Part shown: piece by piece, positions 32,803-38,965 of the stretch | Layout of the letters: each line of letters opens with the position of its first letter | Position numbering within the stretch: the stretch's first letter is position 1 | Assembly: GCA_037481875.1 (NCBI GenBank) | Contig: JBBFKY010000006.1 | Span: 151,383 to 215,382, forward strand | Origin: Desulfosoma sp. | GTDB taxonomy: Bacteria; Desulfobacterota; Syntrophobacteria; Syntrophobacterales; DSM-9756 | DNA: 64,000 bases | Direction of reading: 5' to 3' | The notes under the pieces: generated by a model | The model's database searches: none | Told to the model about the DNA's origin: nothing | Seen by the model: only the letters and a program-made list of their open reading frames with translations | Position numbers and translations under genes: made by a program

Positions 32803-34359
32803 ATGGCCAAAGACACGAACAACGGCGCGAATCTCGGCTTTGAGTCTGAGCTTTGGCGTGCCGCCGATGCGCTGCGCTCCAACATGGACGCCGCCGAGTA
32901 CAAGCATGTCGTGCTCGGTTTGATCTTCCTCAAATACATCTCAGACGCCTTCGAGGAACAACGCGCCAGGTTGGAAGCGGAACGAGCCCAGGGAGCCGAC
33001 CCGGAAGATCCCGACGAGTACCGCGCCGTCAACATATTTTGGGTGCCCAAAGAGGCGCGCTGGTCGAACCTCAAGGCCAACGCCAAGCAGCCGACCATCG
33101 GCAAGGTCATCGACGACGCCATGCTCGCCATCGAACGCGAAAACCCCTCACTCAAGGGCGTGCTGCCCAAGGACTACGCCCACCCGCGTCTCGACAAGCA
33201 GCGGCTCGGCCAACTGATTGACTTGATCGGCAACATCGGATTGGGCGACAAGGCAAATCGGTCAAAGGATATTCTCGGCCGGGTGTACGAGTACTTCCTT
33301 TCTCAGTTCGCCAGTGCCGAGGGGAAAAAGGGTGGTCAGTTCTACACGCCCCGCTGCGTCGTTCGACTCCTTGTCGAGATGCTCAGTCCCTACAAAGGCC
33401 GCGTGTATGACCCCTGTTGCGGCTCAGGCGGCATGTTCGTCCAGTCAGAAAAGTTCGTCGAATCCCACGGCGGCAAAATCGGTGACATCAGCATCTACGG
33501 CCAAGAGTCCAACCATACCACATGGCGACTGGCCAAGATGAACCTGGCCATTCGCGGCATCGACGGCAATCTCGGCAAGGAACACGCCGACACCTTTCGC
33601 CGCGACCTGCACCCCGACCTCAAAGCCGATTTCATCCTTGCCAATCCGCCTTTTAACATGTCCGATTGGGGGCTCGAATACCTCAAGGACGACAAACGCT
33701 GGAAATACGGCATACCGCCTGCGGGCAACGCCAACTTTGCTTGGGTGCAGCACATCATCCATCATCTCGCCCCAACCGGCGTGGCTGGCTTTGTACTCGC
33801 CAACGGCTCGATGTCCTCCAACCAATCGGGCGAGGGCGAAATCCGCAAGAACATCATCGAGGCCGATCTGGTGGATTGTATGGTGGCGCTGCCGGGGCAG
33901 CTCTTTTACTCAACGCAGATCCCTGCCTGTCTGTGGTTTCTGGCCCGGGATAAGAAGAACGGCCGCTTCCGGGACCGGCGCGGCGAGGTACTTTTCATTG
34001 ATGCGCGCAAAATGGGCCGCATGGTGGACCGCACCCACCGCGAACTCACCGATGAGGACATCGCAAGGATAACCGGCACCTACCACGCCTGGAGAGGGGA
34101 GAAGGCGGTGGGTGAGTACAAGGACGTGCCCGGCTTTTGCAAGAGCGCCACGTTGGAGGAGATCCGCAAGCACGGCTATGTGCTCACGCCGGGCCGCTAC
34201 GTCGGAACCGAAGCGGTCAAGGACGACGATGAGCCCTTCGAGGAAAAGATGCAACGGCTCGTGGCCCAACTGCGCGATCAACAGGTCGAGGCGACGCGGT
34301 TGGAGGCAGCGATTGAGGCAAATTTAAAAAAACTTGGATTTTGGAATCTGGGACGATGA
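32803..34359 (+). CDS. hsdM: Type I restriction-modification DNA methyltransferase subunit
   Basis: 518 aa. N6-adenine methyltransferase that forms M2S with HsdS. N-terminal HsdM_N helical domain ([20 protein letters not shown]), SAM motif [10 protein letters not shown] near residue 203, catalytic NPPF near 282. The C terminus ([20 protein letters not shown]) is a coiled-coil tail; related copies of it recur downstream at 36164, 36887 and 37576. GGAGAGGAGAG precedes the ATG. The stop overlaps the next start (ATGA). Confidence 0.96.
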
Positions 34360-36053
34360 CGCCGGAACAGCTTCAAGAGCTTCTTCAGTGTGGCGAGGCG
34401 CTGGACGTTGAGTTCAAAGGAGAAGAGCGCAATGCTCTCTCGGACAACGAGTTGGTGGAAGCCATTGTGTGCCTAGCGAACCGTTCGGCCAGCACCCCCG
34501 GCTGGCTCCTCATTGGGGTCGAGGATGACGGGCGCGTGACCGGTGCCCGCCCCAGACAAGAATCTGGTCGCACCGATCCCTTACGGCTTGCTGCACTCAT
34601 CGCCAATCGCACGCGTCCATCGCTGAGCGTTCGTGTTTTCGTCGTGCCTTGGGAAGACAAAGAGGTTTTAGCCATCGAAGTGCCTACATCTCCAACCCCC
34701 GTGGCTACCACAGGCGGGAAGTATCTCCGCCGCGCCTTGGGCAGTGATGGCAAACCCTGCTGCGTCCCGATGTACTTCCACGAAATGCACGCGCGGCAAG
34801 CAGACCGGGGCGTTGAGGACTACTCGGCTCTGGTGATACCCGAGGCCCGCTGGGGGGATTTAGATCCGCTGGCATTTGAGCGCTTTCGCCGGAGTATCCG
34901 CGAACGCCGAAACGGCGACGTGACGCTCCTCCAGCTCTCCGACTTAGATCTAGCCAAGGCGCTGGGAGCGGTGGAAGCCAACGACCAAGTCCACGCCATT
35001 CGGGTGCTAGGCCTTTTGCTCTTTGGCAAGGAAGAGGCGCTGCGACGGCTCCTCCCTACCCACGAAGTTGCCTTCCAAGTTCTCAAGGGGCAAAAAGTGG
35101 AGGTCAACGACTTTTTCCGCTGGCCGCTCCTGCGCGTCCTGGAAGAGTTCGAACAGCGCTTTGCCGCTCGGAACCGAGAAGAGGAAATCCAGGTAGGACT
35201 TTTCCGGATCGGTGTTCCGGATTATTCTCCGGCGGCTTTTCGAGAGGGATTGGCCAATGCGCTGGTGCATCGCGACTATACTCGTCTTGGGGCTGTGCAC
35301 GTGCAATGGCACCCTGACCACATGGAAATCTCAAACCCAGGCGGATTCCCCTAGGGTGTCAGGTTGGACAACTTGCTGGTGACGCAGCCTCGGCCGCGTA
35401 ACCCCTTGCTCGCCGACGCATTCAAGCGGGCGTGCATCGTCGAGCGCACCGCCCGGGGCATCGATACCATCTTTTACGAGCAGCTACGCAATGGCCGGCC
35501 CGTGCCGTCTTATGAACGCAGCAATGAAAGCGGGGTGGTGCTCCTTCTCCCAGGCGGCGAGGCCAATCTCGATTTTGTTCGTCTGGTAGTTGAGGAATCC
35601 CGAGCCGGACGTGGACTTGGACTGGATGACCTGCTCATCCTGAATGCCCTTTGGCAGGACCGGCGTCTGACCACCGAGGAAGCTGTGTGTTTCACCCAGA
35701 AACCGGCAGCCGAAGTCAGGGCTGTGCTCAACCGCCTCGTGGAAATGGGTCTTATTGAGGCGCGGGGCGAGCGCAAGGGGCGCTCTTGGCACCTTTCGGC
35801 CACCACCTACCGCCGCCTAGGCAAGCCTGCGGCTTATGTGCGCCAGCGGGGCTTCGAACCGCTGCAGCAGGAGCAGATGGTACTGCAGTATGTGGAAAAG
35901 CACAGGCGTATCACGCGCAAGGTGGCGGCGGAGCTGTGCCGGATCGGCCCGTACCAAGCGACGCGTTTGCTAGCCAGGCTCGTTGAGGATGGACGCCTCA
36001 TCCGTCACGGCGAGCGAAAGGCGGCCAGATATGAGCGGGGGCAAAAAATATGA
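34356..36053 (+). pseudogene. AlbA/Schlafen-type ATP-binding transcriptional regulator, split by one TAG
   Basis: One continuous frame of 565 codons apart from a TAG at 35352-35354. Upstream of it: AlbA_2/Schlafen domain (ALDVEFKGEERNALSDNELV, WLLIGVEDDGRVTG) and the start of a GHKL-like ATPase (REGLANALVHRDY, MEISNPGGFP). The family continues with an acidic or other residue then GV; here the codon is TAG. After the stop: GVRLDNLLVTQPRPRNP, then winged-helix segments (LTTEEAVCFTQKPAAEVRAV). The start overlaps the hsdM stop (ATGA). Two separate polypeptides or loss of function are both possible. Such genes often accompany type I systems. Confidence 0.8.
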
Positions 36054-36095
36054 GCGCGCTCATAAGTTTTGGAGAACCGCTCATATATTTGAGCG
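36049..36095. promoter_or_regulatory. Cluster of TGAGCG/CGCTCA palindromes
   Basis: A perfect 16-bp palindrome TATGAGCGCGCTCATA (36049-36064), then CGCTCA-TATATT-TGAGCG (36078-36095). A further ATGAGCG half-site is at 36031. The pattern looks like an operator for a dimeric regulator. It lies between the AlbA-type gene and the first MNT gene. Confidence 0.5.
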
Positions 36096-36163
36096 CCGTC
36101 GATAAAAATGCACGTGTGCGTTTATTTGTGCGGTGCGTGTGTTTCTCGGCAGGTACGGGGTGG

Positions 36164-37552: not shown

Positions 37553-37575
37553 ATCCGGTCCGGACCGCTGGCAAG

Positions 37576-37647
37576 CAGCAGTCCGAGGCGGCAGAGCTGG
37601 ATGCGGCGATCGTCAGGAACATGGAGGAGCTTGGGTATGGCGGGTGA
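37576..37647 (+). repeat. hsdM-tail copy C, before hsdS
   Basis: Encodes [20 protein letters not shown] then YGG and TGA. The hsdS ATG (37637) lies inside it, in GGGTATGGCG. This would be the natural hsdM-hsdS junction if the intervening cassettes were absent. Confidence 0.8.
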
Positions 37648-38965
37648 GTGGAAAAGGGCTTCGGTCTCCAAGGTCGCAACCCCGGTTATAGGCGGAACAC
37701 CGAGCCGTTATGTGCCTGAATACTGGAATGGGAGCATCCCGTGGGCCACGGCTAAAGATGTTGCGGCAGTTTCGGGCCGTTACCTATTTCATGCTCAAGA
37801 GTTTATCAGCGAAGAGGGCTTGAATAGAAGCGCGGCGAAGCTAATGCCCAAGGGTACTGTGGTCATAACGGCTCGCGGCACAGTTGGCGCCCTTGCCCAA
37901 CTCGGCCAAGCGATGGCATTTAATCAGACTTGCTATGCCCTTCTTCCAGGGGAAGGTCTAGATAATGATTTTCTATTCTATGCCTTGAAGGGCACATTAG
38001 CAGAGATGCGGGCGCTTAGCTATGGTACCGTCTTTGAGACGATCACTACCCAAACATTTGAGCACTGGATGATCCCTATTCCCCCCCTCCCCGAACAACG
38101 CGCCATCGCCCACATCCTCGGCACGCTGGACGACAAGATCGAGTTGAACCGGCGGATGAGCGAGACGCTGGAGGCGATGGCCCGGGCGCTGTTCAAGGCG
38201 TGGTTCGTGGACTTCGAGCCCGTGCGCGCCAAGATGGAAGGCCGCGACCCCGGCCTCCCCGGTACGGGCGGGTTCTCAACCCGCCCCTACGCCGACCTCT
38301 TCCCCGACCGGCTGGTGGATTCGGAGCTGGGGGAGATTCCGGAGGGGTGGGGGGTGCGGACAATCGGGGAGGTTGCGGATGTGGTCGGCGGTAGTACGCC
38401 GAGCACAAAGGAACCTGCATACTGGGAAGGCGGAACCCATTACTGGGCCACTCCCAAAGACTTATCGAGGCTGTCAGTGCCTGTTTTGCTTGAAACGGAG
38501 CGCAAGATCACAGACGCCGGCCTTGCCCAAATCAGCTCCGGCTTGTTACCGCGAGGCACCGTTCTGCTTTCCTCACGTGCGCCTATTGGTTACCTCGCAA
38601 TTGCAGAAGTGCCAGTCGCTATTAACCAAGGGTTCATCGCTATGAAACCCAGAAAAGGTGTGTCGAATCTATTTCTCCTGCTCTGGGCTAGCTTCGCTTA
38701 CGATGACATTGTGAGTCGAGCAAACGGCTCGACCTTCCAAGAAATCAGCAAGGCGAGTTTTCGACCGATACCTTTTGTGCTGCCACCTGTCGCTGTGATG
38801 CAAGCATTTGACACCCAAACGCGTCCATTGTATGAGCGCATTGTCGCCAACGAGCGCGAATCCCGCACCCTCGCCACCCTGCGCGATGCGCTGCTGCCCA
38901 AGCTCATCTCCGGCGAGCTGCGGGTGAAGGATGCGGAGCGGTTTTTGAAGGAGCGCGGGTTATGA
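37637..38965 (+). CDS. hsdS: Type I restriction-modification specificity subunit
   Basis: 442 aa, DNA-recognition subunit. Two target-recognition domains, each starting with the typical signature ([20 protein letters not shown] and [20 protein letters not shown]), separated by the conserved spacer [20 protein letters not shown] and ending [20 protein letters not shown]. The central linker carries a 29-bp REP palindrome as an in-frame insert (38262-38290), adding about GTGGFSTRP before [20 protein letters not shown]. The stop overlaps the DUF3800 start (ATGA). Intact. Confidence 0.95.
38262..38290. repeat. REP palindrome inserted in frame within hsdS
   Basis: GGGCGGGTT-CTC-AACCCGCCC with flanking GTAC/CTAC, a 9-bp perfect stem. 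It is translated between PGLP and YADLFP of the central linker. Same family as the palindromes near the RAYT genes. Confidence 0.7.
38879..38965 (+). repeat. 87-bp direct repeat, copy 1 (end of hsdS)
   Basis: Encodes [20 protein letters not shown] and ends KERGL. The second copy is at 40008-40094, about 82 of 87 bases identical. Confidence 0.9.

Follow-up and report, generated by a model that had tools for sequence, protein, structure and literature searches.

The 64,000-nucleotide stretch of Desulfosoma sp. DNA analysed here (contig JBBFKY010000006.1, positions 151,383 to 215,382; hereafter the window) carries a type I restriction-modification (RM) operon in which hsdM, hsdS and hsdR are all present together (Pfam; PADLOC) and in which accessory genes alternate with partial copies of the hsdM 3' end, or tail. 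The gene order is hsdM-AlbA-t2-MNT1-HEPN1-t3-MNT2-HEPN2-t4-hsdS, with t2, t3 and t4 denoting the tail copies, followed by a DUF3800 gene, a hybrid small open reading frame (mini-ORF), a broken transposase-like gene and hsdR. The features from hsdM to hsdS are listed below, with overlaps in nucleotides (nt) and tail scores from a profile hidden Markov model (HMM).

32803..34359, + strand: hsdM, type I methyltransferase subunit (Pfam HsdM_N 1.8e-28, N6_Mtase 4.8e-115), its tail at 34279-34359
34356..36053, + strand: AlbA_2/HATPase_c_4 gene (Pfam SLFN_AlbA_2 3.8e-15, HATPase_c_4 1.5e-7)
36050..36235, + strand: mini-ORF t2, its ATG overlapping the AlbA stop by 4 nt and its 3' end formed by an hsdM-tail copy (36164-36235) that overlaps the MNT1 start
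36225..36512, + strand: MNT1, antitoxin-like nucleotidyltransferase (NTP_transf_2 2.8e-14; PADLOC PDC-S09 2e-39)
36509..36847, + strand: HEPN1, HepT-like RNase toxin (HepT-like 4.9e-28)
36881..36934, + strand: hsdM-tail copy t3, overlapping the MNT2 start (tail HMM 18 bits), its frame broken upstream
36924..37214, + strand: MNT2, nucleotidyltransferase (NTP_transf_2 8.9e-17; PDC-S09 1.2e-41)
37211..37552, + strand: HEPN2, HepT-like RNase toxin (HepT-like 1.8e-27)
37549..37647, + strand: mini-ORF t4, its ATG overlapping the HEPN2 stop by 4 nt and its 3' end formed by an hsdM-tail copy (37573-37647)
37637..38965, + strand: hsdS, specificity subunit (Methylase_S 3.3e-48)

The AlbA/HATPase gene directly follows hsdM and starts on its stop codon (ATGA). 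Downstream, adjacent nucleotidyltransferase and HEPN RNase genes form toxin-antitoxin arrangements (Pfam, PADLOC), the second MNT-HEPN unit being 76% identical to the first across 679 nt. The last junction, from t4 to hsdS, is the canonical GYGG-stop/MAGEW.

The tail copies were identified with a profile of 78 other HsdM C termini run over the whole window, which scored the hsdM end at 75 bits and the three copies at 35.5 bits (36164-36229), 18.0 bits (36881-36928, the short t3 of ~16 codons) and 27.3 bits (37573-37644), with the next best match at 6 bits. When a tail profile was applied to the whole 3.4 Mb genome, exactly these four places were recovered, with E values of 1.3e-21 (hsdM), 8e-8 (t2), 9e-3 (t3) and 4e-6 (t4). 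A stop codon lies 0-1 residue past the end of each copy. Its 11-nt overlap with the ATG of the following gene is the one usually seen between hsdM and hsdS in relatives. Outside this genome, t4 and the direct hsdM-hsdS junction of another locus (L038; further loci are likewise given L numbers) are 86% identical at the nucleotide level over 79 nt spanning the start codon, as expected for the original hsdS junction. The original prediction, made from the letters alone, that hsdM-tail copies precede MNT1, MNT2 and hsdS is thus borne out, the tails being real and found nowhere else in the genome, with the correction that the gene directly behind hsdM is the AlbA/HATPase gene.

The same junction structure recurs in other genomes. 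We collected 80 relatives of this hsdM from one-genome-per-species data, a set restricted to close HsdM homologues, together with about 60 loci from the window's phylum, which were gathered with the tail profile and are excluded from all rates. The relatives comprise 33 direct hsdM-hsdS junctions and 36 with an insert; the automatic survey put L022, whose junction is direct, among the latter, so that at most 35 loci truly have an insert. Compared with about 19,000 background sites by a score over the last eight codons, the hsdS start lies inside a tail remnant in 12 of the 36 insert loci (p<0.005 each). An extra tail stands directly before hsdS behind a Fic gene (L010), DUF1016 genes (L021, L059), AlbA then DUF1016 (L044), a HEPN-MNT pair (L053), a gene with a weak, below-cutoff match to 23S IVP (L045) and an IS200 transposase (L050, where the contig stops at hsdS); in L056, with AlbA cargo, one further ORF separates tail and hsdS. 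Loci with extra tails belong to bacteria and archaea of different phyla, and the cargo types found at the junction (Fic, DUF1016, AlbA, MNT/HEPN, ORF6N, DUF4411, IS200) are unrelated. The expectation that the same junction would appear in unrelated loci is therefore supported, whereas the expectation that a tail copy would always accompany an inserted gene is not, since only about one third of the insert loci have one: the pattern is common, not obligatory.

What the copies retain is the part that matters for starting the next gene. Their length varies from about 55 codons (L021) down to 5-10 codons (L003, L074, L174, L184), with a constant right end and a variable left end; as they begin at different codons, there is no fixed recombination core or cassette boundary. 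The last few codons hold the Shine-Dalgarno sequence and the overlapping start of the next gene, and a Shine-Dalgarno-like motif precedes the ATG in 22 of 22 tail copies as against 15% of background TATG sites, so that the architecture of a coupled gene pair (stop/start overlap, Shine-Dalgarno sequence inside the upstream gene) is present at the copies. In 18 of the 22 copies, a mini-ORF opens with an ATG or GTG overlapping the previous gene's stop (mostly by 4 nt, typically ATGA) and runs in the frame of the tail, without a break, as far as the tail's end; where the ATG lies at exactly -4, it is in phase in 12 of 13 copies against the one third expected (p about 2e-5, hand calculation). Between the cargo stop and the tail, the tail frame is open in 17 of 19 cases and the other frames in 22 of 38 (p=0.018), while in L015, L074, L079 and L169 the C terminus of the inserted gene is fused in frame to the tail. 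The gene directly behind hsdM often starts at one of two positions: 16 accessory genes begin at the -11 position of hsdS (20 minus the hsdS starts missed by the detector in L022, L081, L173 and L185), several of them with hsdS-like first codons such as MAGK or MGSD, and 14 start at -4. As judged from sequence, the mini-ORF arrangement is that expected of a translational relay.

The origin of the copies appears to be mixed. In the window, t2 and the local hsdM tail share 38/60 nt, compared with a median of 36/60 for unrelated hsdM tails, and for t2-t4 the local tail ranks only 45-50 among 121 hsdM tails by nucleotide identity; because they are no closer to it than unrelated tails are, these copies are not recent duplicates of the local hsdM end, a source that was rejected here but is valid elsewhere. 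In L164, a locus of the window's phylum, hsdM ends in GYDV-stop, overlaps an MNT gene and shows 76-78% nucleotide identity unbroken from the hsdM tail into MNT, matching both window units (MNT1 and MNT2), while the HEPN gene is cut down and fused to LGYGG-stop/MAGEW before hsdS. Since identity runs through the tail into MNT, each MNT and the tail before it belong together, which makes the unit the hsdM tail plus the following gene rather than, as first proposed, an MNT-HEPN pair plus a tail. The proposal that the operon grows by units added at the hsdM-hsdS junction gains support from these comparisons; the cassette-like nature ascribed to the units does not, as the left ends vary and no boundary is defined. 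In L021, the locus's own tail and the copy are identical at 95/100 nt and then abruptly at 35/58 (p 8e-8), which places a crossover inside the tail. In L045, L056, L152, L154, L156 and L157, by contrast with the window, the copy resembles its own hsdM most closely out of about 120 tails, either alone or in a tie, and in L154 the match extends up to the stop codon itself, indicating that local duplication also happens.

The same pattern of a duplicated junction is found between hsdS and hsdR, where the remaining features of the operon lie. Neither this second case nor the start signals carried by the tails formed part of the original prediction.

38962..39858, + strand: DUF3800 gene between hsdS and hsdR (DUF3800 2.3e-5; PDC-M04A 1.1e-8), its start overlapping the hsdS stop by 4 nt
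39855..40094, + strand: hybrid mini-ORF, hsdR 5' end plus hsdS 3' end, its ATG overlapping the DUF3800 stop by 4 nt
40091..40744, + strand: broken REP-associated-transposase-like gene with an in-frame stop, assigned by eye from the translation, not by family search
40732..43950, + strand: hsdR, restriction subunit (HSDR_N 7.6e-52, SWI2_SNF2 6.7e-81, T1RH-like_C 3.8e-140)

The hybrid mini-ORF matches the HsdR N terminus with 85.5 bits and the HsdS C terminus with 49.9 bits; its last 86 nt agree with hsdS at 82/86 positions and its first part with the local hsdR 5' end at 101/157 (64%), the join falling in an LR(D/Q)AL stretch common to hsdR and hsdS. Its ATG shares the sequence ATGA with the DUF3800 stop, and its 3' end reaches the start of the broken gene that follows. 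Because the hybrid starts as the gene due after the first cargo and ends as the gene due before the second, both couplings are kept. Hybrids of hsdR 5' and hsdS 3' ends occur in three loci (the window, L170, L079), and hsdS-tail copies also in L022, L033, L042, L068 and L179. The transposase-like gene sits between the hybrid and hsdR and would begin in an ATGA overlap with the hsdS-tail copy.

Several further observations concern the accessory genes. Orphan remnants consisting of an hsdM tail and a Fic, AlbA, MNT or DUF1016 gene, with hsdM decayed or not found nearby, were seen in L144 (same genus as the window), L147, L148, L150, L158, L161 and L163, of which L158 and L161 are a near-identical pair in one genome. 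In L155:1-2500 (reverse strand), a Fic gene precedes a mini-ORF (MTSVPCAGGWWLEAAGLDAAI...) that is homologous to the broken t3 leader, and a large methylase-like gene, recognized by eye, comes next; from sequence, the arrangement resembles a scar left by the loss of a HEPN/MNT pair. An HsdS with an N-terminal nucleotidyltransferase (MNT, antitoxin-like) domain is encoded at L014:11018-12694, L042:13093-14715, L062:3754-5268, L072:10954-12582, L077:11028-12656 and L078:12825-14375 (Pfam), and in L072 the gene preceding this fusion encodes an NTase-substrate-binding (HEPN-like) protein; an antitoxin fused to HsdS would link toxin release to HsdS loss. The AlbA/HATPase gene of the window contains a single in-frame TAG at 35352-35354 (GGFP-stop-GVRLDNLLV), a position occupied by Glu in the relative L044, which marks either a pseudogene or a sequencing error. 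Directly after this gene (36031-36105) lies a TATGAGCG/CGCTCATA repeat cluster common to L153, where it is also downstream of AlbA; a palindromic TGCACG-type sequence is present in the window and, downstream of AlbA, in L157, and GCACG motifs are repeated in L044 at about 3930-4060. These repeats are possible binding sites for the winged helix of the AlbA protein.

Taken together, these data make it probable that accessory genes arrive by recombination that duplicates the junction and that the duplicate is kept as a translational relay. The final hsdM codons (K-E-L-G-Y-G) also hold the Shine-Dalgarno sequence and ATG of hsdS, and with the two genes overlapping in this way, an insertion between them must either break one gene or duplicate the overlap. 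Operon DNA bearing cargo would recombine with the resident operon, homologously on one side, within hsd sequence, and illegitimately on the other, each event leaving a second, partial junction copy downstream of the inserted gene, with several rounds in the window. Ribosomes ending the inserted gene would enter the mini-ORF through the ATGA overlap and be handed by the tail at its end to the next start, the survivors being only those outcomes in which every overlap stays translated. A moving unit made of an hsdM tail and the gene fitted behind it could then be strung in variants, as hsdM-AlbA, tail-MNT-HEPN, tail-MNT-HEPN and tail-hsdS. Duplicated junctions with variable left and constant right ends, in-phase overlaps, recurrence and the same pattern at hsdS/hsdR can be read from the sequences, and from them we infer the route of recombination, the relay function and selection for the relay. 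More tentatively, the hsdM and hsdS tails may be portable translation-start adapters, through which any gene landing behind a tail copy would be expressed at the right level in the operon; with the tails common to all such units as regions of homology, type I operons of different phyla could exchange units and string them together. If so, type I operons would be a gene-capture platform that needs no recombinase and whose rule is that translational coupling be preserved.

A number of results weigh against relay-preserving recombination as a general account. About two thirds of the insert loci have no tail remnant; among these, hsdS (or its fusion) directly overlaps the preceding gene in about a third and elsewhere seems uncoupled. 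With the remnant absent from so many insert loci, the relay is one solution, not a rule. The in-phase overlapping start is missing from t3 of the window, from L059 and from the first copies of L152 and L153, and the preceding genes in the phase counts were picked by inspection, that of L003 being a decayed fragment. Paired strains, one with an insert and one lacking it, were not found, and the insertion event itself was therefore not seen. The E. coli hsd loci inspected contain no insert carrying a tail, having direct or nearly direct hsdM-hsdS junctions or inserts at hsdS/hsdR only; considered as a source of occupied and empty pairs, they yielded none among the loci opened. A plasmid-borne hsdM of Klebsiella (L203) has neither a canonical tail nor an insert.

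The main rival is plain insertion with long target duplication, in which cargo inserts directly and duplicates the hsdM-hsdS overlap, donor tails play no part and the relay role is incidental. Such insertion would flank the insert with direct copies of the target, as is seen, and fits the six loci whose copies are closest to their own hsdM, including L154 with its match to the stop codon, as well as the accessory genes that begin at the hsdS ATG position, several with hsdS-like first codons. It does not fit t2-t4, which resemble random hsdM tails as much as their own, nor the crossover within the L021 tail, the tail that in L164 belongs with its MNT, or the hsdR 5' piece of the hybrid, which is only 64% identical to local hsdR; on balance we consider it unlikely as the explanation of the whole pattern.

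The remaining readings fare worse. Chance similarity among coiled-coil C termini, or an assembly error, might be suspected because the tails are short and helical and t3 is weak by itself, but is refuted by the restriction of the four genome-wide matches to this locus, by the nucleotide identity to junctions elsewhere and by the same architecture in many independent assemblies. A dedicated system in which the tail is the site of a site-specific recombinase and units are captured like integron cassettes would agree with the direct-repeat copies flanking each window unit, the precise right ends and the several unrelated cargo types; it is disfavoured, and in our estimate very improbable, given left ends that range over about 5 to 55 codons with no constant recombination site at the unit boundaries, copies that lie in coding sequence and diverge by as much as 40% within a single operon, and the absence of a recombinase or integrase among the operon's genes (Pfam). 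Equally doubtful is a function of the mini-ORF peptides in which HsdM C-terminal helices, made on their own, would bind HsdS and adjust assembly: the tail does correspond to that helix and most frames are open, yet only the Shine-Dalgarno and start part survives in remnants that are reduced to KEMGYGG or joined to cargo C termini, the leaders are unrelated in sequence and hsdS tails show the same phenomenon.

Homology-facilitated illegitimate recombination, in which one homologous joint is combined with one joint at microhomology, would yield structures such as those described here, for example the hsdR-5'/hsdS-3' hybrid. Taken singly, defence-gene embedding, long target duplication and hsdM-hsdS coupling have been described before, whereas their combination was not found in the open-access literature searched, nor was any description of tail copies or relay mini-ORFs, so that the evidence for novelty is weak. 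Restriction operons often harbour defence genes. Those in type I RM operons have been reported under the term guilt-by-embedding (Payne et al. 2024, cited in PMC12255303), as have the mlo/rlo genes of Campylobacter (Miller et al. 2005, cited in PMC5183652), PrrC, DarTG2 in enteropathogenic E. coli (EPEC) and TgvAB in V. cholerae (PMC11411939), and HEPN genes have been linked to RM systems (PMC3710099). The window resembles these cases in having accessory defence or toxin genes between hsd genes, its MNTs matching PDC-S09, a phage defence candidate family in PADLOC, but duplicated gene ends, relay mini-ORFs and expression of the host operon after insertion are not described in the portions of those reports consulted, which likewise offer no explanation of how defence genes enter tightly overlapping operons without breakage. 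The junction copies let each insertion be traced and supply a simple rule for which ones survive, and a stray hsdM or hsdS tail before an unknown gene would mark present or formerly embedded defence genes, including orphans without restriction genes. Insertion with long target duplication is itself known for RM genes (Nobusato et al. 2000, cited in PMC1643837) and shares with the window the direct target copies flanking an insert; in that case RM genes are what is inserted, whereas here an RM operon receives the insert, a gene-overlap junction has been duplicated and some tails seem to have come in together with their cargo. In EcoKI, hsdM and hsdS are known to be translationally coupled (PMC3510504), with a stop/start overlap as in the window, but that overlap is 1 nt as against 11 nt here, and in the window the coupling element has been copied and placed ahead of unrelated genes.

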